The notes beneath the pieces are model-generated. The model was not told the origin of the DNA. It did not search any database and worked only from the letters and a program-made list of their open reading frames with translations. Both the position numbers and the translations under genes were made by a program. From Candidatus Nitrotoga sp. MKT (lineage in GTDB: Bacteria; Pseudomonadota; Gammaproteobacteria; Burkholderiales; Gallionellaceae), in NCBI GenBank assembly GCA_003402345.1, contig QFXH01000003.1:124001-188000 (forward strand): DNA of 64,000 bases, written 5' to 3'. Below are positions 25,343 through 37,216 of the stretch, one piece after another (the first letter of the stretch is position 1; each line of letters opens with the position of its first letter).

Positions 25343-25553
25343 TAGTATCGCCGAAGGGCTAGTTTGAATGCAGATCAGTACGAAAGTATGCTGATTTGTA
25401 AAGAATAAGGCGTAATCTGATATTTTTGTTTCAATTTATTTTTGGAATGAAGTCAGATCAGGTTTCGTTCAGGACACCTATTTCGCTTCAATCACGTGCG
25501 CAACCACCCAATTCAAATTTGCCAAAGCTAATCCAATGGATTACTATCGCCAT

Positions 25554-25889
25554 ATGATTACGATTGCCGAAGTGCCGGAATATGTCCGCCAAGCGGAGAA
25601 ACTCCTGACCGCAGATGAACGGCAAGATATTTTGAGTTATCTGGCAGCACATCCGAAATCTGGCGATTTGATCGAAGGCACAGGCGGTATTCGCAAGATG
25701 CGCTGGGGGCGAGGTGGACGCGGCAAAAGTGGCGGGGTGCGGGTAATCTACTACTACCACAGCGAAGTGATGCCGCTTTATCTGCTAGCGATGTTCGCCA
25801 AGAATGAGCAGGCCAATTTGAGCAAGGCGGATCGCAACAGTATGGCAAAGTTGGTGGATATTTTGGTTGCAACTTGGATTGAGAGGTAA
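25554..25889 (+). CDS. HigB/RelE-type toxin
   Basis: 111-aa toxin of the HigB-2/RelE superfamily, paired with a NadS-like antitoxin. Recognisable segments are TPEY-like AEVPEYVRQAEKLL, DLIEGTGGIRKMRWGRGGRG and GGVRVIYYYHSE. These give the RelE fold with basic surface residues expected to cleave ribosome-bound mRNA. ATG 25554 matches the usual N-terminus (MITIAE); ATG 25536 is an alternative. The toxin gene comes first, as in higBA loci, and is followed after 3 bp by the antitoxin. Confidence 0.9.
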   Translation: MITIAEVPEYVRQAEKLLTADERQDILSYLAAHPKSGDLIEGTGGIRKMRWGRGGRGKSGGVRVIYYYHSEVMPLYLLAMFAKNEQANLSKADRNSMAKLVDILVATWIER

Positions 25890-25892
25890 TAA

Positions 25893-26177
25893 ATGGGAAA
25901 AGCTTTTGACAGTATTTCGCGTGGTTTGAATGAAGCTATCGCACACGCGAAAGGCGAGAAGGTCGCGGTGAAACTTTACAAACCGGAGGCGGTGGATGTC
26001 TCTGCCTTGCGCCGTAATATGGGTATGACGCAAGAGCAGTTTGCTGCCCGTTTCGGGTTTTCGGTGGCGACGTTGCGCCATTGGGAGCGCGGGGATCGTT
26101 CACCGCAAGGTGCGGCGCTGGTGCTGCTGAATGTCATCAAGCGCGCGCCGGAAGCGGTTACGGCTGCGCTGAACTGA
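25893..26177 (+). CDS. NadS/HigA-type antitoxin (XRE helix-turn-helix)
   Basis: 94-aa antitoxin. The N-terminal segment (FDSISRGLNEAIAHAKGE) should bind the toxin. The C-terminal HTH (LRRNMGMTQEQFAARFGFS then TLRHWERGDRSPQG) should bind the operon promoter and autoregulate. It is the partner of the HigB-like toxin. The pair likely stabilises the integrative element. Confidence 0.92.
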   Translation: MGKAFDSISRGLNEAIAHAKGEKVAVKLYKPEAVDVSALRRNMGMTQEQFAARFGFSVATLRHWERGDRSPQGAALVLLNVIKRAPEAVTAALN

Positions 26178-28149: not shown

Positions 28150-29360
28150 CCTCTCCATTACGCAACAGCAGCTTTATCAAGCTGCTAATTTTCCGTTTTC
28201 AGATTTCACTGGCCTACCAAATGATCGCCGTGGTTGTCGGCTGGCATATCTATGAATTAACGCACGACCCTTTTGCGCTGGGTCTGGTCGGATTGGCGGA
28301 AGTCATTCCCTACTTTTGTTGTGCGCTATTCGCGGGTTACGTCGTAGACCATCACTCTAGGCGAATGTTTGGCGTGCTGGCAAGCATCGTGCTAAGTTGC
28401 AATGCTCTAGTACTCGTGCTTGTAGCCAACGGCGGGATAGCGGGCGCCACGCTAGTATGGATCTATGCATCGATCGCCGCTGGTGGCATTGCCCGTGCCT
28501 TCATCGGGCCTTCTTACAACGCACTGCTTGCTCTGACTTTGCCGCGTGAGCATTATGCCCGTGCCGCCGGTATCAGTAGTTCGGTTTTTCAATCTGCGCT
28601 GGTGCTTGGTCCTGCGTTGGGGGGGATACTCGTTGGTTGGGCCAGTCTTACTACCGCTTACATGGTGGCTTCGATCCTCAGCATCAGTGCCGCCGTTTCT
28701 TTATTCTTGCTACGCATCGCAGAGCCACCGAAAGCTGAAAGCGCACCGGTATTTTCCAGCATTGCCGAGGGGCTGCGCTTTGTATTCAGCAACCAGATCA
28801 TTCTAGGCGCGCAAGTACTGGATATGTTCGCCGTGTTATTCGGCGGCGCGGTCGCCATGTTGCCAGTATTTATCCACGATGTTTTCCATTATGGTCCAGA
28901 AGGCTTGGGCATCTTACGCGCGGCACCTGCGATAGGCGCAATCGCCACCGGCGTACTACTTGCACGCCATCCCGTGAACCAGAATGCGGGTGGGATATTG
29001 CTGGCATCTGTCGCCGGGTTTGGTGTATGCATCATTTTGTTCGCCCTTACCAGTCATTTTTGGGTGGCGGCTTTCTTGCTGATGCTCTCTGGCGTGTGTG
29101 ATGGGGTCTCGATGGTACTGCGTACCACTATTATGCAGCTGATGACGCCAGACGCTATGCGCGGTCGTGTTTCTGCGATCAACGGCATTTTTATCGGCTC
29201 GTCCAACGAGTTGGGCGCTTTCGAATCCGGCTTGGCTGCCCGGGTAATGGGATTAGTACCCTCTGTAATTTTTGGCGGAGTAATGTCTTTGGCTATCGTG
29301 GCAGCGACGGCGCGTCTGGCACCCAAGTTGCGCAAATTAAATCTGCAGCAATTACGTTAG
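28146..29360 (+). CDS. MFS transporter (EntS/DHA3-like exporter)
   Basis: 404-aa major facilitator with 12 predicted membrane helices. The first half holds AYQMIAVVVGWHIYELTHDP and GLAEVIPYFCCALFAGYVVD, with the loop-2/3 motif VVDHHSRR. The second half shows LMTPDAMRGRVSAING, common in EntS-like drug/siderophore exporters. The start is TTG 28146: no ATG or GTG is open further upstream in frame, and the reading agrees with family N-termini. Substrate unknown. Confidence 0.87.
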   Translation: MTSPLRNSSFIKLLIFRFQISLAYQMIAVVVGWHIYELTHDPFALGLVGLAEVIPYFCCALFAGYVVDHHSRRMFGVLASIVLSCNALVLVLVANGGIAGATLVWIYASIAAGGIARAFIGPSYNALLALTLPREHYARAAGISSSVFQSALVLGPALGGILVGWASLTTAYMVASILSISAAVSLFLLRIAEPPKAESAPVFSSIAEGLRFVFSNQIILGAQVLDMFAVLFGGAVAMLPVFIHDVFHYGPEGLGILRAAPAIGAIATGVLLARHPVNQNAGGILLASVAGFGVCIILFALTSHFWVAAFLLMLSGVCDGVSMVLRTTIMQLMTPDAMRGRVSAINGIFIGSSNELGAFESGLAARVMGLVPSVIFGGVMSLAIVAATARLAPKLRKLNLQQLR

Positions 29361-29599
29361 GAAAACGCTGATTTATCCTTCTGTTCTAATGAGGCGGATT
29401 CTAGATCATCGATTTTAAAACATGCTCCCGGGGCTGTTTGCAGAGAAGTCAGGCCATGCAAACTTGTTTTTCCGAACCGGAATACGCAGCAGAAAAAAGC
29501 AAATGCGCGCAACCGATTTCTGACTGCGCTAGAAGCAGTAATTCCATGGACGTGTACTATCAGGTTAACCGTCAAGAAAAAAGCGATAGGAAATTAAAA
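29361..29599. other. Intergenic before the attenuator
   Basis: About 240 bp with no recognised gene. It ends at the promoter described next. Confidence 0.35.
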
Positions 29600-29629
29600 T
29601 TGACTCAATCCATTATTCACCCTGATAAT
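29600..29629 (+). promoter_or_regulatory. Promoter of the leader/DMT transporter transcript
   Basis: TTGACT (29600-29605) and GATAAT (29624-29629) with an 18-bp spacer. The predicted start of transcription falls at about 29636, on or next to the ATG of the leader peptide, so the leader could be translated without a 5' UTR. Confidence 0.6.
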
Positions 29630-29635
29630 CTGCTC

Positions 29636-29737
29636 ATGACCTCCCTAAAAGCCGTTTCACAAAACAAAGCTCTGCTAAACGCACACCCTCGAGTGGTGTG
29701 GCGTATGAGTATTGTGGCCTGGAGAATTAGTAGTTAA
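29636..29737 (+). CDS. Candidate Trp-containing leader peptide
   Basis: 33-codon ORF ending in VVWRMSIVAWRISS. The two Trp codons are TGG 29699-29701 and TGG 29720-29722. It lies between a promoter and an intrinsic terminator upstream of a DMT transporter, the geometry of an amino-acid attenuator. A ribosome paused at the first Trp codon would leave TGTGGCCT (29713-29720) free to pair with AGGCCACA (29764-29771) and break the terminator. The translation start is unproven because no RBS is visible. Confidence 0.5.
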   Translation: MTSLKAVSQNKALLNAHPRVVWRMSIVAWRISS

Positions 29738-29760
29738 GTACTATTAACATTAGCAGTTTC

Positions 29761-29796
29761 AAAAGGCCACAGAGTGTTTCTGTGGCCTTTTTGTTT
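29761..29796 (+). terminator. Attenuator terminator upstream of DMT transporter
   Basis: AAAAGGCCACAGA (29761-29773) and TCTGTGGCCTTTT (29779-29791) form a perfect 13-bp stem with a 5-nt loop and a T-run. It lies 23 bp before the transporter ATG rather than after a gene. Its left arm can alternatively pair with 29713-29720. Confidence 0.88.
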
Positions 29797-29818
29797 TTAT
29801 ATCGTTTGGAGTACAAGT

Positions 29819-30688
29819 ATGTCGCTTCCCGCCGCGTTTGTTTCAGTCATTCTTATCTGGTCTACTACACCGCTTGCCATCAAATGGAGCGCAATAGGAG
29901 TCGGCTTTAGTTTTGCAGTTCTCTCGCGCATGGCAATAGGCGCGCTGTTGTGTGTCGCACTGCTAGTTATACTGCGCATTCGTTTCCCATTGCATCGTAA
30001 GGCGCGTCTAAACTATCTGGCCAGCGGATTAAGCATGTTCGGTGCGATGGCACTGACGTATTGGTCTTCCCAGTATGTCAGCTCCGGCATGATCTCCGTA
30101 CTATTTGGTTTGTCGCCGTTGATTACCAGCTTGGGAGCGGCTTTGTGGCTAAAGGAAGAGGCAATAACTCCGAGCAAGATAGCAGGTATGTTGCTGGGCC
30201 TGGCCGGTCTGGTTCTAGTGTTCCGCGGTGGGCTGGATCTAGGTAATGGCGCAACTGTGGGTTTGGTCGCACTGTTCATTGCGGTGGTCATGCAATCTCT
30301 TGGTTTGGTATGGATCAAACGGATAAGCGATGATAGTCCGCCGCTGGCGATGACGCTTGGCTCTTTGATTGTGGCATTACCACTGTTTTTATTGGTATGG
30401 TGGCTGGCTGATGGGCACTGGCCTGCTTTGTTGCCCGAGCGGGCAGTAGCGGCTACTTTGTACTTGGGAGCATTCGGATCGCTGTTAGGCTTTACGCTGT
30501 ATTACTACATGATCAAACATATGCAAGCAGGGCAAATAGCTTTGATAACGCTCGTAACACCAGTGCTGGCATTACTACTTGGCCATGGCTTGAATAATGA
30601 GACGGTGTTGCCACATGTGTGGATGGGTACAGCAAGTATTGCGTTCGGATTATGCCTGCATCGCTGGGGAGGACGGTGGCTAGCTTGA
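29819..30688 (+). CDS. DMT superfamily transporter (EamA family)
   Basis: 289-aa membrane protein with ten predicted helices made of two EamA repeats. The repeats are marked by SGMISVLFGLSPLITSLGAALWL in part one and QIALITLVTPVLALLLGHGL in part two. The family moves amino acids, purines or related metabolites, usually outward. ATG 29819 has GGAG at 7-nt spacing. The upstream Trp-codon attenuator suggests a link with tryptophan or a related compound (inference). Confidence 0.88.
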   Translation: MSLPAAFVSVILIWSTTPLAIKWSAIGVGFSFAVLSRMAIGALLCVALLVILRIRFPLHRKARLNYLASGLSMFGAMALTYWSSQYVSSGMISVLFGLSPLITSLGAALWLKEEAITPSKIAGMLLGLAGLVLVFRGGLDLGNGATVGLVALFIAVVMQSLGLVWIKRISDDSPPLAMTLGSLIVALPLFLLVWWLADGHWPALLPERAVAATLYLGAFGSLLGFTLYYYMIKHMQAGQIALITLVTPVLALLLGHGLNNETVLPHVWMGTASIAFGLCLHRWGGRWLA

Positions 30689-30760
30689 CAGGTGTTGCAG
30701 CCGGATGGGCATACACGATCCCTATTTTCCATACCTCAATCCATTATTCAATAATGCGGC

Positions 30761-32155
30761 TTATGCTTGCACCATCCAGAATTCAAAACGTATGCGACCA
30801 TTCTCGGTGCTAACAGAAATGCCTCCACCATGGGCCTCAATAATGGATTTTGTTATGGCTAGTCCAAGCCCTGCACCCGCATTGTTTCCTTGACATGAGG
30901 GGTCAATATGATAAAAACGATCAAACAGCCGATCCAAATGCTCTTTACCAATGTCGGTACAAGGGTTTTCAATAATTAAGCAAATCTTCTTTTCATCTTT
31001 CAGTTGGATATCAACAGTTATTAACTGATCAATGGGTGTGTGTTGTATCGCGTTGGATATCAGATTATTAATCGCCCGCCGTATCATGAGCTTATCACCC
31101 GAAATAATAGCCGTTCCATGACTAACCATCTGTATGCGCTTTTCCTCAGTAAGGGGCTCATAGAACTCAATTAATTGAGCAACTTCTTTAGCCAAATTTA
31201 TAGGTTCCCGGTGTGGAATAATTAAGTCATTTTCTGCTTTAGCCAGAAATAACATATCAGAAACCATCCGGGCCAGCCTGTCATATTCCTCAAGATTTGA
31301 AATCAATATTTCTTGATAGTCTTCCAAAGATCTGGGCTTAGCTAACATGACTTGAGTCTGCGTCATTAAATTACTGACCGGAGTGCGCAACTCATGCGCC
31401 AAGTCGGAAGAAAAATCTGATAATCGTTGAAAGGATTTTTCAAGCCTGGATAACATTTTATTGAAGGACTCAGCCATATGCATCAATTCCTTGGGAACAC
31501 TTTCGACTTTCAATCTTTCAGAAAGACGATTGGCTGTAATAATTTGGGTAAGATGATCAAAATCGCGAATTGGAGATAAGCCTCGACGGACAGCCAGCCA
31601 ACCCAGCAAACTCATAAGCAAAATGCCTATAATCAGAGCGAGCCATAATGTTTGATTGAAGCGAGTAATGAATTTCTGGTGATGCGCAATATCCAGCGCA
31701 ATTGCAACGATCAGGGTGGGGCTTTGCTTGTCATGGGAAGGCATTGAAACTGCGAGGCCACGATAAGTTTGAGAGCCATCTCGCCATTTATATAATTTAG
31801 CTTCTTCACTTTCTCCGGACAAGGAACGTTGGTCGATAATTGTATTAGGGAAATTCGCTTCGCCCCAACTATAGATTTGTTCACCTGTAGCCGTGTACAC
31901 CGCAACCGAAAGCGCATGATGGCCAACTAAGGCGTCATTGAGCTGCGAAGGTACAGATTTAAGCGCTGATACGGATTCAATCTTCTGCAAGGCATAACGG
32001 ATTAACTCAAGCTTCCCATGAATTTCAGCTATATCCTCTTCAGCAAAATGGCGCTCAACAGACAATCCAGCGATAGTACCCACGGTGATAAGAACAGTAC
32101 TCGAAAGTGCCGCAAACAGAAAAGTAATTCGCCATGTGATTGATTGGCGCAACAT
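30761..32155 (-). CDS. Heavy-metal sensor histidine kinase (CusS-like)
   Basis: 464-aa membrane kinase. TM1 (ITFLFAALSSTVLITVGTI) and TM2 (LALIIGILLMSLLGWLA, near residue 180) enclose a periplasmic sensor. A HAMP domain follows (LSPIRDFDHLTQI), then HisKA with the phospho-acceptor His in LAHELRTPVSNL and HATPase_c with N-box NLISNAIQHTP and G-box GAGLGLAITKSI. It belongs to the CusS/IrlB heavy-metal kinase family. It shares one base with the regulator gene upstream. Copper or silver sensing is inferred from the neighbouring copper genes. Confidence 0.93.
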   Translation of the reverse strand: MLRQSITWRITFLFAALSSTVLITVGTIAGLSVERHFAEEDIAEIHGKLELIRYALQKIESVSALKSVPSQLNDALVGHHALSVAVYTATGEQIYSWGEANFPNTIIDQRSLSGESEEAKLYKWRDGSQTYRGLAVSMPSHDKQSPTLIVAIALDIAHHQKFITRFNQTLWLALIIGILLMSLLGWLAVRRGLSPIRDFDHLTQIITANRLSERLKVESVPKELMHMAESFNKMLSRLEKSFQRLSDFSSDLAHELRTPVSNLMTQTQVMLAKPRSLEDYQEILISNLEEYDRLARMVSDMLFLAKAENDLIIPHREPINLAKEVAQLIEFYEPLTEEKRIQMVSHGTAIISGDKLMIRRAINNLISNAIQHTPIDQLITVDIQLKDEKKICLIIENPCTDIGKEHLDRLFDRFYHIDPSCQGNNAGAGLGLAITKSIIEAHGGGISVSTENGRIRFEFWMVQA

Positions 32156-32832
32156 TAGTCATCTAGGCCCATAAGTACATAGCCCATGCCACGTACAGTT
32201 CGAATGAGTTTGGGTTCAAAGTGGTCATCCATTTTAGCTCGTAGGCGACGAACAGCCACCTCAATGACATTTGTGTCACTGTCAAAATTCATGTCCCAAA
32301 TTTGGGATGCGATCAAGGAACGAGGTAAAACTTCACCACGACGCCTAAGCAACAATTCCAACAAAGCAAACTCTTTTCCAGTAAGTTCTATCCGCTTTCC
32401 GCCCCGCGTAAGTTTCCGACGTTGAAGATCCAATACCAAGTCAGCGACTTGTACAATGTCTGGGTCTCTTACTTTACCTCTACGTAGCAATGTCCTTACT
32501 CGTGCCAACAATTCTGAGAAGGCAAACGGTTTTATCAGATAATCATCTGCGCCCAGCTCCAACCCTTTTACTCTGTCATCTATCCCATCTCTGGCTGTCA
32601 GGAATAATACTGGCGTATTTTTGCCAGCTCGACGTATGGTTTGAATGATCTCCCAACCATTAACGTTCGGCAGCATGACATCCAGTATTATCAAATCATA
32701 AGCCTCAGTCAGCGCTAGATGTTTTCCATCTAAACCGTCTCTTACAAGATCTGTGACAAAGCCTGCTTCAGATAAACCTTGTTTAAGGTATTTACCTGTT
32801 TTTGGTTCGTCTTCAACAATCAGAATTCTCAT
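32155..32832 (-). CDS. Heavy-metal response regulator (CusR-like, OmpR family)
   Basis: 225-aa response regulator. The receiver domain has the acidic pair VEDEP, the phospho-Asp in LIILDVMLP and the switch Lys in [15 protein letters not shown]. The C-terminal winged helix ([16 protein letters not shown] to [25 protein letters not shown]) binds DNA. It is divergent from the copper operon at 33057. A TTACAA/TTGTAA dyad in the gap is the likely target. Confidence 0.94.
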
Positions 32833-32957
32833 AAGTAGATGGGTCCAATGGTCAACCTGAATTCTGCATGAATATTTCTTTGACCGGCACCATTTTGCCT
32901 AATTTTTGGACATTAACTTCAAAACTAGTCCTTTTAGGTTTGACACTTTGCCCAATC

Positions 32958-32971
32958 TTACAATTTTGTAA
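32958..32971. promoter_or_regulatory. Candidate CusR/CopR operator
   Basis: TTACAA-TT-TTGTAA, a perfect 6-bp dyad between the divergent regulator and copper-resistance transcripts. The sequence resembles the TTACA...TGTAA cop boxes bound by CusR/CopR-type regulators. A TTGACA lies 17 bp to its right (32988-32993). Confidence 0.55.
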
Positions 32972-33056
32972 TCTTCAGGTAATCATTTTGACAGCTTCCA
33001 AGTTCTAATATGTTCGCTAGTTAACCCGAAATTAAACTTACATTTAAGGGATGAGG

Positions 33057-34349
33057 ATGTATTTGCCTACTATGGTTTTATCGCTAAGTCTATTAATTGC
33101 ATTTAATGTTTTAGGGGCTCAGAACAATAATTCTCCATCCCCCAACCTTACCACCTCCACTCCTATCAATGTGCCTTATCAATCTTCTTTTTCTAGTTAC
33201 AAACCCTATGTCGAGGAGGAGCTTTCTTCATGGCGTGCTCTCAATGAGCAAGTAACTGGGGAAGGCCCTACTGACCACTCCATGGGCAATATGAAAAGCA
33301 TGGATCACAAAAGAATGGAATCTATGCCATCTGGCCACTCTATGCCTGAGATGAAAGGCGTGCAACATGATCATGTAGAACCTTCGACCTCTGAAACTCC
33401 CATGGTACCTATGAAAGGCATGGATCACGATTCCATGAAAGATATGCCTCCCCCAACTACGCAACCTTCAGTCAAGGGGGTTAGTCGTGGACCCCAACAA
33501 GAAATACTTTTGGCGATGAATGACGAGAAAATGACATCAAAGCATTCATCTAAACCTCCGATAGAAAACATGCCGCATGAGCATAATGAAACCGAATCTT
33601 CCTCATTCATGACACCTATGGCAGCCATGGATCATGGTTCCATGAAAGACATGCCTAACGACACCGGTCAACCGTCTTCCAAAGAATCATCAGAACAGGC
33701 ACATCAACATCGAGACGAGCATGCAGTATCAGGTGGGGCAGGTGGTGCGACGCCACTGAAAATAAATAAAACAGGGCCAGTCATCAAATTTGAACTCATT
33801 CCCAATGCTCATCCTATCGCTGTGCATTTTCCAATCGCGCTCACACTAATCGCCTTGTTATTCAGCCTCGCAGCTCGGATTGGCAGCAGGCATAACTTAG
33901 CAACCCAGCTTGCTACCGTTGGCCACTGGGCATTATGGATATCAGGGGTAACTGCAATCATTGCTGCGGGCTTAGGTTGGCTAGCTTTCAACTCTGTTGA
34001 TCACGATGATTCTGGACATGCGGCCATGTTAATTCATCGTAATTGGGCAATCCCGACTGCAATCGGTCTTTTGCTCTTAGCTATGTGGGATGTCTTCAAG
34101 TCACGCGCCCATGAGGTAATGTCATGGTTTACCCTGATCGTGCTGACCTTGCTATCCGGATCAGTCGCGGTAACAGGTTGGTTAGGTGGCGAAGTAGTTT
34201 ACCGTCATGGCATTGGAGTGTTGTCTTTGCCCGAAATTGCAACGGGAAGTGACTCTCATGGTCATGACCATGGTGATTCAGATAGCCATCGTTATCAGCA
34301 TGGTGTCTCTGCAGTTATTGAAGAATCAAAACCGGCACATCAACATTAA
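33057..34349 (+). CDS. Met/His-rich protein with DUF2231 membrane domain
   Basis: 430 aa. A signal sequence (YLPTMVLSLSLLIAFNVLG) precedes a 200-residue periplasmic region with degenerate metal-binding repeats such as HSMGNMKSMDHKRMES, PMKGMDHDSMKDMP and AAMDHGSMKDMPND. Their M-x2-M and D-H/Q-H clusters suit Cu(I)/Ag(I). From about residue 255 a four-helix DUF2231-type membrane domain follows (AHPIAVHFPIALTLIALLFSL), and the C-terminus is His-rich (SDSHGHDHGDSDSHRYQH). ATG 33057 is preferred because AAGGG lies 6 nt upstream; ATG 33051 overlaps it. First gene of the copper operon; probable periplasmic metal buffer. Confidence 0.8.
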   Translation: MYLPTMVLSLSLLIAFNVLGAQNNNSPSPNLTTSTPINVPYQSSFSSYKPYVEEELSSWRALNEQVTGEGPTDHSMGNMKSMDHKRMESMPSGHSMPEMKGVQHDHVEPSTSETPMVPMKGMDHDSMKDMPPPTTQPSVKGVSRGPQQEILLAMNDEKMTSKHSSKPPIENMPHEHNETESSSFMTPMAAMDHGSMKDMPNDTGQPSSKESSEQAHQHRDEHAVSGGAGGATPLKINKTGPVIKFELIPNAHPIAVHFPIALTLIALLFSLAARIGSRHNLATQLATVGHWALWISGVTAIIAAGLGWLAFNSVDHDDSGHAAMLIHRNWAIPTAIGLLLLAMWDVFKSRAHEVMSWFTLIVLTLLSGSVAVTGWLGGEVVYRHGIGVLSLPEIATGSDSHGHDHGDSDSHRYQHGVSAVIEESKPAHQH

Positions 34350-35809
34350 TGGAATGGGATTTGAATTTGAGTATGACTACTCTTTTGGCCTCAAGTTTGG
34401 TGAATATGCCAAGAGCGCTTATTACCTTCCTTTTCATCAGTGTAACCCTCAGCGGTTGTGCTACTTTTTCCAAAGACGGAGGACTTGGTGCAGTTCAGAA
34501 AACTACTAAGGATCTTATTGGTAAGGATATTCAGTGGGTCAAATCTGTAGAAGACCAGGATGCTGTGCAATCTCGTACTGAAGAGCTATTAAAAAACCCA
34601 CTCACGGTAAATGATGCAGTGCAGATTGCCTTATTCAACAATAAAGGTCTACAGGCAGCATTTTATGATTTAGGTATTTCTGAAGCAGATCTGGTACAGG
34701 CAGGCAAATTACCAAATCCACGCTTTGCCATGCTGCATACCAAAAATAATGGTGACTATAAGATCGAGCAGTTATTCACATTTAATATTCTTTCTTTACT
34801 GACCATGCCCAAAGCACTCCAGATTGAAAAACGACTGTTTGAGCAAACACAACGACAGACTGCGATGGAAGTATTGCGGTTGGCTAATGAGACCCGCAAG
34901 GCATATTTCAAGGCAGTGGCTGCGGATCAAAGCACGCATTACATGCAACAAGTTAGAGCTGCGGCAGAAGCCAGTGCAGAACTGGCCCGTAATATGGTGA
35001 AAGCGGGCAATTGGAGAAAACTAGACCAGGCCCGGGAACAAGGATTTTATGCAGATGCTGCACTGGGAGTTGCTCGTGCGGAGCGGAATAAAATCACTGC
35101 CTATGAAGAGTTGACCAGGCTTATGGGCTTATGGGGCAAACAGACTCAGTTCACGCTCCCTGAAAGATTGCCGGACTTACCCGTAACTGTAGATGAATCA
35201 AACAACATCGAACAAACCGCCATGGATCAACGCCTTGATCTGCAGTCGCTCCGATTACAAACTGAAGCGCTGGCCAATCAGCTTGGCTTAACTAAAGCCA
35301 CGCGTTTCATCAATGTATTGGAAGTTGGGCCTGCACGCGTTCTTGAAGGTAAAAGATCAGATCCTTACAAGAAAGGCTTCGAGATTACCTTTGAGATTCC
35401 CATTTTCGATTGGGGCACCGCTCGGGTAGCCAGAGCTGAAGCAATTTATATGCAGGCCATCCATATGATTGCTGAGACAGCAGTGAATGCACGTTCAGAG
35501 GTGCGCCAAAGCTACAAGCTATATCGTTCAAGTTATGACATTGCAAAGCATTACCGTGATGAGATTGTACCCATCCGCAAACGCATTTCTGCTGAAAACC
35601 AGCTTCGTTACAACGGCATGTTGATCAGCGCATTTGAATTATTAGTGAATGCCCAATTACAAGTCAGCACTGTCAACAGCTATATCGAAGCGCTGCGTGA
35701 TTTTTGGTTATCGCAAAGCGATTTAGAAATGGCCCTGATTGGTAAGCCCCTGTTTTCCGGTGGCACTGGCTCACCGATGAGGGACAACCAGATGAGCATG
35801 GGCTATTAA
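34349..35809 (+). CDS. TolC-family outer-membrane lipoprotein
   Basis: About 486 aa (467 if it starts at ATG 34406). The signal ends in the lipobox LSGC (FLFISVTLSGCATFSKDG), so the mature protein is lipid-anchored. The body is two long helical repeats typical of OEP/TolC proteins (VNDAVQIALFNNKGLQAAF; IEQTAMDQRLDLQSLRLQTE). It would form the outer-membrane channel of a metal efflux system, but no RND pump or periplasmic adaptor is encoded nearby. Its first base overlaps the stop of the preceding gene. Confidence 0.82.
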   Translation: MEWDLNLSMTTLLASSLVNMPRALITFLFISVTLSGCATFSKDGGLGAVQKTTKDLIGKDIQWVKSVEDQDAVQSRTEELLKNPLTVNDAVQIALFNNKGLQAAFYDLGISEADLVQAGKLPNPRFAMLHTKNNGDYKIEQLFTFNILSLLTMPKALQIEKRLFEQTQRQTAMEVLRLANETRKAYFKAVAADQSTHYMQQVRAAAEASAELARNMVKAGNWRKLDQAREQGFYADAALGVARAERNKITAYEELTRLMGLWGKQTQFTLPERLPDLPVTVDESNNIEQTAMDQRLDLQSLRLQTEALANQLGLTKATRFINVLEVGPARVLEGKRSDPYKKGFEITFEIPIFDWGTARVARAEAIYMQAIHMIAETAVNARSEVRQSYKLYRSSYDIAKHYRDEIVPIRKRISAENQLRYNGMLISAFELLVNAQLQVSTVNSYIEALRDFWLSQSDLEMALIGKPLFSGGTGSPMRDNQMSMGY

Positions 35810-35839
35810 GCAAGTATTCCAGAATTAAGGATATCGGAT

Positions 35840-37216
35840 ATGGTAACAAGGCGTGATTTCCTGAGAGCAAGTGCGGCAGGGGTTGCTTTATCAGCAGCAA
35901 CGGTAAGTGCAGTGGCAATGGCTGCCTTGCCTCAAATTGTATCGATGGAAACCCCCGATACACAGCCGCCATTAACGCCAGAAAATGGACGCCCTTACAA
36001 CCCTGTTGTTACGCTCAATGGCTGGACTTTGCCATGGCGCATGAACAATGGCGTCAAAGAGTTCCATCTGGTGGCAGAGCCGGTAGTGCGCGAGATGGCC
36101 CCGGGCATGAAAGCGCATCTATGGGGCTATAACGGCCAAAGCCCAGGACCTACCATTGAAGTTGTTGAGGGTGATCGAGTGCGCATATTTGTTACCAACC
36201 GCTTACCTGAACATACGTCTATTCATTGGCATGGGCAGCGGTTACCGAACGGTATGGATGGCGTCACCGGGTTGACCCAGCCTGGTATCAATCCCGGCAA
36301 GACATTTGTTTATGAATTTGAAGCTAAACGGCCCGGCACTTTCATGTACCACCCGCATGCTGATGAAATGACGCAAATGGCCATGGGTATGATGGGCTTC
36401 TGGGTGACCCATCCAAAGAATCCCAAGTTCATGGCAGTAGATCGTGATTTCGTATTTTTACTTAATTCTTTCGACATCGATCCTGGTAGCTATACGCCAA
36501 AGATTACCACCATGCTCGATTTCAACTTATGGGCATTTAATAGCAGGGTGTTTCCTGGAATTTCGCCCATGGTGGCACGCCAGGGAGATCGAGTACGTAT
36601 CCGTGTGGGTAACCTAACAATGACCAACCATCCGATGCATTTACACGGTCACGAATTTGTTGTCGCCGGGACAGACGGAGGATGGACGCCACCAAATTCC
36701 CGTTGGCCGGAAGTTACCGCCGATATAGCAGTGGGCCAAATGCGCGCGTTTGAATTTATTGCTGATGAGCCTGGTGATTGGGCATTTCATTGTCACAAGA
36801 GCCATCACACTATGAATGCAATGGGTCATGACGTGCCTACGATGATTGGTGTGGATCAAAGCAAGCTTGTCGACAGAATAATATCGCTGGTTCCTGATTA
36901 CATGAGCATGGGTGAAAGCGGCATGGCGGATATGGAGAAGATGGCAATGCCTTTGCCAGATAACACCTTACCGATGATGTCCGGTCAGGGGCAATTCGGT
37001 GGCATCGGAATGGGAGGGATGTTTACGACCGTTAAAATCCGCGAAGGTCTTGCGCGTAACGATTACAAAGACCCTGGCGCTTATCAGCATCCTGTAGGCA
37101 CCGTAGCTTATGAAATTAATTGTGAGTTACCGCCTGTGCAAAGGCAAACTGAAACCCCATCCGAAGATGGGGTGGAATTTAAAGTGCGTAAACCCGTGGG
37201 TCATGGTGAACATTAG
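35840..37216 (+). CDS. Multicopper oxidase, CopA/PcoA-like
   Basis: 458-aa periplasmic oxidase exported by the Tat route (VTRRDFLRASAAGVALSAA). All four copper-binding blocks are visible: HWHGQRLPNG, MYHPHADEMTQ, NHPMHLHGHEF and the type 1 site HCHKSHHTMNAMGH. The C-terminal region is Met-rich (GMGGMFTTVKI preceded by SMGESGMADMEKMAMP). It likely oxidises Cu(I) to the less toxic Cu(II) or stores copper. Third gene of the copper operon. Confidence 0.93.
   Translation: MVTRRDFLRASAAGVALSAATVSAVAMAALPQIVSMETPDTQPPLTPENGRPYNPVVTLNGWTLPWRMNNGVKEFHLVAEPVVREMAPGMKAHLWGYNGQSPGPTIEVVEGDRVRIFVTNRLPEHTSIHWHGQRLPNGMDGVTGLTQPGINPGKTFVYEFEAKRPGTFMYHPHADEMTQMAMGMMGFWVTHPKNPKFMAVDRDFVFLLNSFDIDPGSYTPKITTMLDFNLWAFNSRVFPGISPMVARQGDRVRIRVGNLTMTNHPMHLHGHEFVVAGTDGGWTPPNSRWPEVTADIAVGQMRAFEFIADEPGDWAFHCHKSHHTMNAMGHDVPTMIGVDQSKLVDRIISLVPDYMSMGESGMADMEKMAMPLPDNTLPMMSGQGQFGGIGMGGMFTTVKIREGLARNDYKDPGAYQHPVGTVAYEINCELPPVQRQTETPSEDGVEFKVRKPVGHGEH

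Follow-up and report, generated by a model that had tools for sequence, protein, structure and literature searches.

A putative single-Trp-codon attenuator upstream of an EamA family transporter gene in Candidatus Nitrotoga and related bacteria

Genetic organization of the locus

In this study, we closely examined a stretch of 64,000 nucleotides (positions 124,001 to 188,000 of contig QFXH01000003.1), here called the window, from the 2.7-Mb genome of Candidatus Nitrotoga sp. MKT. A previous sequence-only reading had described a promoter, a 33-codon open reading frame (ORF), an antiterminator, a 13-bp terminator, and an EamA transporter gene in this order, and all of them were confirmed at the positions listed here:

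29600..29605, + strand: -35 element TTGACT (sequence and consensus scan)
29624..29629, + strand: -10 element GATAAT, with an 18-nt spacer from the -35 element and 6 nt ahead of the leader ATG
29636..29737, + strand: leader ORF MTSLKAVSQNKALLNAHPRVVWRMSIVAWRISS, 33 codons from the ATG plus TAA (29735-29737), read from the sequence and probably leaderless
29699..29701, + strand: Trp22 codon, the proposed control codon, with Trp conserved in related leaders
29713..29720, + strand: antiterminator 5' arm TTGTGGCC, which pairs with 29764-29771 over 8 bp in folding predictions
29720..29722, + strand: second Trp codon, out of the ancestral frame and overlapping the antiterminator arm; by leader comparison present in this species group only
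29761..29791, + strand: intrinsic terminator of 13 bp with a 5-nt loop, then a T-rich tail (scan and folding, -20.0 kcal/mol)
29764..29771, + strand: antiterminator 3' arm, common to the terminator 5' arm (folding)
29808..29811, + strand: GGAG, probable ribosome-binding site of the transporter gene (by reading)
29819..30688, + strand: EamA/DMT family transporter of 289 amino acids (Pfam PF00892, E 1.2e-32)

In the window, 27 nt separate the end of the terminator from the EamA gene. The transporter is 100% identical in Nitrotoga sp. LAW (L032; loci are given L numbers throughout), and a plasmid copy of the region was looked for and not found. A consensus scan of 29400-30900 yielded two promoter-like sites against 1.7 expected and four terminator-like sites against 1.7 expected, which alone is insufficient to go beyond chance; the recurrence of the arrangement, the frame specificity of its TGG, and the on average better pairing of arms with their own than with swapped partners indicate more than chance.

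Occurrence of the leader in related genomes

A search for the same leader in relatives, as suggested in the sequence-only reading, recovered it in 64 of 76 distinct upstream regions of close relatives, in 32 of 40 remoter regions (by reading), and in 56 further loci found with a covariance model. The leader ORFs in these related loci comprise 21 to 38 codons. Since the leaders are mutually related, all counts given here refer to non-independent events.

The close regions were chosen by protein. Of 149 related genomes searched with the protein, 59 contained the transporter (E up to 1e-30). Scanning named genomes gave 36 transporter loci, by title largely from Gallionellaceae and other Nitrosomonadales; L094, a partial protein match, was left out. 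The resulting 94 upstream regions include the 76 distinct ones, of which 12 were set aside by eye. L067 has no clear ATG, so that this protein-chosen set holds 63 translated leaders. Among the regions set aside, five (L027, L047, L050, L061, and L084) keep the terminator without a leader ORF as judged by reading, L093 has a hairpin without a T tail, and L039, L055, L081, L087, L095, and L096 show neither. In L047 and L050 a promoter stands shortly before the terminator; the leader ORF has apparently been lost there and the transporter retained.

The covariance model (R1) was built on the 3' part of the leader from 47 sequences over 118 positions. It matched in 57 of 399 genomes of the order and in 59 of 369 genomes of the class (E up to 0.01; false matches included). 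The survey covers part of these matches, with some weaker ones and L200 left out. Reading of the neighborhoods yielded the 56 additional leaders, each followed by an EamA gene, 10 from order genomes and 46 from class genomes; this model-found set is biased, since R1 covers the TGG. Another 28 matches (L121, L122, L126, and 25 others) were judged to be non-leaders, namely, tRNA-plus-terminator arrangements or gene-end terminators. L170 is a repeat of L050 and has no leader ORF, and L097, L098, L100 to L103, L108 to L110, and L112 to L117 repeat the protein-chosen set or share genomes with it.

For the remoter set, the 369 class genomes were searched with the protein, and 101 of them contained the transporter (E up to 1e-55). 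Forty transporter places missed by R1 were taken, and 16 low-scoring places were left out. A script offered 33 ORFs, of which those of L224, L236, and L229 were dropped by eye. No leader was recognized in 8 of the 40 regions, one of which (L216) keeps the terminator.

Promoter geometry and a probably leaderless message

In the protein-chosen relatives, a TTGAC-type -35 element was matched in 58 of the 64 leader regions. The leader ATG follows the -10 element by 6 to 8 nt in 56 of these 58, with one case each of 5 and 9 nt; starts were accepted between 2 nt upstream and 12 nt downstream of the end of the -10 element. The model-found leaders show the same 6 to 8 nt within the 4 to 10 nt in which an ATG was looked for, as do 27 of 30 remoter leaders, for which 0 to 20 nt were accepted. 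By established promoter geometry, the usual distance from the -10 element to +1 would put the start on the window ATG. Because the ATG stands 6 nt after the -10 element, at this usual spacing, the leader message is probably leaderless, with +1 on the ATG or no more than two bases from it.

A Trp codon kept in frame

A Trp is encoded in 58 of the 63 protein-chosen leaders, in 57 of them at the core position. The same holds for 53 of the 56 model-found leaders (a biased set), with L106, L141, and L195 lacking it, and for 29 of the 32 remoter ones, with L212, L214, and L240 lacking it; this last count is made up of 28 of 30 script-found leaders and L229, the start of which lies off the contig. 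Taken together, 140 of 151 leaders encode Trp and 11 have none, and the remaining peptide diverges. Trp is missing from the core position in 12 of the 151 (L009, L023, L048, L071, L080, L088, L106, L141, L195, L212, L214, and L240), including L088 with a Trp elsewhere in the leader and the degenerate L048. Most of the Trp-less leaders keep the pairing arms, with weak pairing in L214 (-11.2 kcal/mol). A terminator kept without the Trp codon or the antiterminator arm, which the sequence-only reading had named as the pattern that would speak against attenuation, was thus mostly absent: besides the 58 of 63 and 29 of 32 leaders with Trp, a GTGGYC-type arm is present in 59 of the 63 protein-chosen leaders. 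The exceptions are six terminator-only regions and the 11 Trp-less leaders.

Upstream of the arm, TGG occurs in frames 0, +1, and +2 in 55, 21, and 1 of the 63 protein-chosen leaders and in 53, 23, and 2 of the 56 model-found ones. In the remoter set, for which the stretch was delimited in another way, the numbers are 28, 18, and 3 of 30, a weaker contrast with frame +1. This frame test disfavors the idea that the TGG is kept merely as an RNA or DNA signal. Codon-position patterns were compared in 88 related, non-independent pairs from 55 leaders. Before the Trp codon, differences per site amount to 0.151, 0.181, and 0.244 at codon positions 1 to 3, and over the eight codons after it they are 0.226, 0.213, and 0.210, without phase. 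The phase signal is weak and compatible with translation under loose constraint up to the Trp codon; the stretch beyond it would be kept as RNA.

The distance from the start of the Trp codon to the arm is 16 nt in 35 of the 56 protein-chosen leaders measured (range, 11 to 37 nt), and in the Trp-containing leaders of the protein-chosen and model-found sets the codon lies 9 to 22 codons ahead of the stop. The leader peptides are basic, with 427 K, R, and H against 49 D and E among 2,017 residues in the protein-chosen set and 363 against 45 among 1,752 in the model-found set, which leaves room for an effect of the nascent chain. No common arrest motif was seen in the peptides of all three sets by reading.

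The second Trp codon results from a deletion

The sequence-only reading had counted two Trp codons in the leader. The first of these, Trp22, is the conserved one; the second did not hold up as a control codon. L007 and L006 read RVVWHIEYCGLE (...VWHIEYCGLE...), whereas the window, L003, L004, and L005 lack one base downstream of the Trp codon, giving RVVW(R/H)MSIVAWRIS. Since the 1-nt deletion is common to four genomes, a sequencing error is unlikely, and on this comparison the second Trp codon is local to this species group and unconserved. Two functional Trp codons were therefore rejected, the second being a product of the deletion inside the antiterminator arm. Nor can it be the sensor, because a stall at this codon would hide the arm beneath the ribosome. 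The C-terminal frame switches several times between relatives with GTGGYCxGG unchanged, and this constancy despite the frame changes suggests that the stretch is kept as RNA.

Antiterminator and terminator pairings

In folding predictions for the window, the pairing of 29713-29720 with 29764-29771 sits in a hairpin of -19.9 kcal/mol, and antiterminator and terminator are mutually exclusive. At equilibrium, the whole window leader is predicted to favor the terminator, so that the switch would be kinetic. When increasing lengths of the 5' side were occluded, the predicted antiterminator energy was -20.3 kcal/mol with the RNA free from 29712, -15.1 kcal/mol from 29715, and -7.3 kcal/mol from 29719. 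An advance of one or two codons beyond Trp22 would thus decide the outcome, and the series agrees, as a prediction, with the earlier proposal that stalling at the first Trp codon favors antitermination.

The best pairing of each leader with its own terminator arm was compared with that obtained after swapping the arms and after shuffling the leaders. The mean energies were -16.1, -15.4, and -12.0 kcal/mol, respectively, in the 63 protein-chosen leaders, a comparison that is little informative because the arms are nearly identical, and -17.1, -15.0, and -13.0 kcal/mol in the 56 model-found ones. The own arm had mean ranks of 0.41 and 0.31 in the two sets (0.5 expected) and fell in the best tenth in 9 of 63 and 16 of 56 leaders; the duplex picked by the script is not always the arm drawn by hand (L124 and L130). 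In several leaders with a GGCCGC-like terminator, among them L065, L118, and L139, the upstream arm has changed to match. RNAalifold gave back the terminator and a single weak hairpin of 3 pairs, but not the antiterminator, because the latter is an alternative fold. A segment masking the antiterminator arm was sought in 115 leaders and none was found (67 of the 115 lie below their own shuffle mean), so that an untranslated leader should read through.

Proposed mechanism and alternative explanations

By its sequence, the element has all marks of a trp-type attenuator and would be a variant of a known mechanism. The parts are present, they exclude each other in the folding predictions, they are conserved, and the Trp codon is frame specific. 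We consider it likely that the leader acts as a ribosome-mediated attenuator with a single Trp control codon, which would turn expression on through stalling at Trp22 when charged tRNA-Trp is scarce. RNA polymerase would start on the leader ATG or no more than two bases away, and a ribosome would bind the leaderless 5' end and trail the polymerase. With charged tRNA-Trp plentiful, the ribosome would reach the stop codon, about 25 to 35 nt before the terminator, and cover the antiterminator 5' arm; the terminator could then form and transcription would end. During a pause with Trp22 in the A site, we infer that the front edge of the ribosome would be near 29711-29713, leaving the arm at 29713-29720 just free. 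The antiterminator would then form and the polymerase enter the EamA gene. Trp would itself be the signal, most simply in the form of charged tRNA-Trp.

Several findings count against this mechanism. Most leaders have only one control codon, and a large number of such codons is said to matter for sensitivity (PMC1183508). In addition, 12 of the 76 close and 8 of the 40 remoter regions have no recognized leader, 11 of 151 leaders lack Trp, the advantage of the own arm is small in the 63 protein-chosen leaders, and the search for an arm-masking segment found none.

The loss of Trp from leaders that mostly retain their arms could also be read as a sign that the leader, like those of erm and cat genes, senses slowed translation or a ribosome-targeting drug and induces an EamA exporter, the Trp being a slow or drug-sensitive site. 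The occlusion series would allow this, as a stall anywhere at or before codon 22 should free the arm, and EamA proteins are often exporters and the leaders basic. Such a sensor would not need an in-frame Trp, yet 140 of 151 leaders keep Trp amid otherwise divergent residues, and the remoter leaders showed no common arrest motif by reading; we regard this explanation as improbable. Still less probable is arrest by the nascent peptide as in TnaC, with Trp acting as a residue in the exit tunnel rather than as a codon and with free Trp or the transporter substrate as ligand. A single conserved Trp among basic residues, 9 to 22 codons before the stop, is what such a peptide could look like. Against it, the peptide around the Trp diverges across the class, a ribosome halted close to the stop codon would sit over the arm and favor termination, and the prevailing Trp-to-arm spacing of 16 nt fits a stall at the codon.

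We think it very unlikely that the element is simply a promoter-proximal terminator that yields a small RNA or a low constant expression of the transporter with little regulation. Six regions with a terminator and no ORF (by reading; five protein-chosen ones and L216), the losses of Trp, and the fact that a similarly designed leader is catalogued as a small RNA (RF02884, BcKCsr7) would suit this. A bare terminator does not account for an antiterminator arm that is conserved and co-varying, for the conserved start of the ORF, or for the frame specificity of the Trp codon.

Relation to known leaders

Among the matches listed in a search of the open-access literature, with subscription papers mostly outside it, no attenuator before an EamA gene was found. 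Like amino acid attenuators in general and the E. coli-type Trp leader (RF00513), the element comprises a leader ORF, control codons, and alternative hairpins; unlike the latter, its target is a transporter and its message is probably leaderless. RF00513 gave no Rfam match at E up to 1 in 29000-30900 of the window, none in 20 related loci, and, on the window leader itself, none even at E up to 10. A known Rfam leader was rejected, as the window leader has no Rfam match and the related leader L099 scores below the gathering score of RF02884.

The trpL leader of Sinorhizobium meliloti itself has several Trp codons. It precedes trpE(G) and encodes a 14-amino-acid peptide, and by this description is set apart from the leaders of 21 to 38 codons before a transporter found here. 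The 5' end of this trp attenuator (trpL/peTrpL, rnTrpL) is at the leader ATG (PMC7298713); the locus studied here resembles it in a 5' end at the ATG, which in our case is inferred, in its Trp codon(s), and in an antiterminator that competes with a terminator. That source gives trp attenuators several Trp codons, in contrast to the usual single one here.

TnaC, the leader of the tryptophanase operon, has one key Trp and is linked to Trp metabolism. It is Rho dependent, senses free Trp, and stalls at its stop codon, whereas in the leader described here the terminator is intrinsic and the Trp codon lies upstream of the stop. Stalling of TnaC by free Trp is described in PMC8429421.

With RF02884 (BcKCsr7, Burkholderia sRNA 7), the leader shares a short promoter-close ORF and a GCCACGG-type terminator. 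RF02884 did not match the window leader and matched the EamA leader L099 weakly (27.8 bits against a gathering score of 59). It exceeded the cut-off in 1 of 150 genomes of the order, at L248 (G205:C23:593829-593982), where an ORF with an Arg run, MLSLQTNLRRRRSLLP, precedes a gene for an ArgD-like aminotransferase; L248 thus differs in having Arg rather than Trp codons and a target gene other than EamA. From its sequence, this leader, and RF02884 with it, may be an Arg attenuator, which we note as a lead. L120, L123, L177, and L205 likewise have Arg-codon leaders and GGCC- or GCC-type terminators before genes for ArgD-like class-III aminotransferases, as assigned by Pfam for L120 and L123, by reading for L205, and by likeness to L123 only for L177. 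The ATG lies 6 to 7 nt past the -10 element in L123, L177, and L205; no promoter was matched in L120. RF02884 itself is an expressed Burkholderia small RNA, also named nc5U30 (PMC10987360). If the Trp switch works as proposed, some of the small RNAs in catalogues may likewise be attenuator leaders ended at their terminators. At L144 (1600-2505), a leader built in the same way, MFTANTTCKSVHFLRMPLRITRWNTVAWGME, stands ahead of an alpha/beta hydrolase gene and not a transporter gene.

The transporter and its possible substrate

The EamA/DMT family is very large and hard to assign by sequence, and control elements provide one of the rare hints to a substrate. Only general families fit the transporter, namely, Pfam EamA and, below cut-off, the NCBIfam models TIGR00950 and YedA; a solved relative sought by sequence was not found (best E, 0.27). 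The Trp codon suggests that Trp or a similar aromatic compound is carried, and with this direction of control import would be easier to reconcile than export. Most DMT carriers that are known export their substrates, a role that fits induction by Trp shortage poorly. RibN-type riboflavin importers illustrate that such a carrier can serve uptake and be controlled by RNA.

In L118, L124, and L125, a chorismate-mutase-like gene (AroQ/PchB-like) stands between leader and transporter. The L118 gene matches Pfam CM_2, that of L124 was judged by reading, and in L118 and L125 the NCBIfam models of chorismate mutase and isochorismate lyase score below cut-off. These intervening genes point to aromatic metabolism. 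Against a link to Trp in particular, chorismate mutase draws chorismate away and competes with Trp synthesis. No Trp-codon run was seen by eye in part of the sequence upstream of the two trpE-like genes of the genome.

A conserved Trp-codon switch would point directly to a candidate substrate of a transporter that occurs in many families, and would extend amino acid attenuation to EamA transporters, with one control codon and a leaderless message. More tentatively, and with somewhat less than even confidence, we propose that the leaders form an unnamed, class-wide family of leaderless single-Trp-codon attenuators in the Gammaproteobacteria (sensu GTDB), defining an unrecognized Trp regulon in which EamA proteins would import Trp or a similar aromatic compound and be induced when charged tRNA-Trp runs short, with sister Arg leaders of like design before ArgD-like genes, one of which stands in Rfam as a small RNA.

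Neighboring genes in the window

Other features of the window were observed on both sides of the leader. At 25536-26177 (+ strand), a RelE family toxin-like gene (Pfam PF06296) is followed by a gene for a 94-amino-acid helix-turn-helix-like protein (by reading); the two are a probable toxin-antitoxin pair. Downstream of the transporter gene, 30761-32832 encodes a sensor kinase and a response regulator, followed up to 37216 by outer-membrane efflux-like and multicopper-oxidase-like proteins (by reading), and from this reading the region 30761-37216 looks like a copper-resistance cluster.
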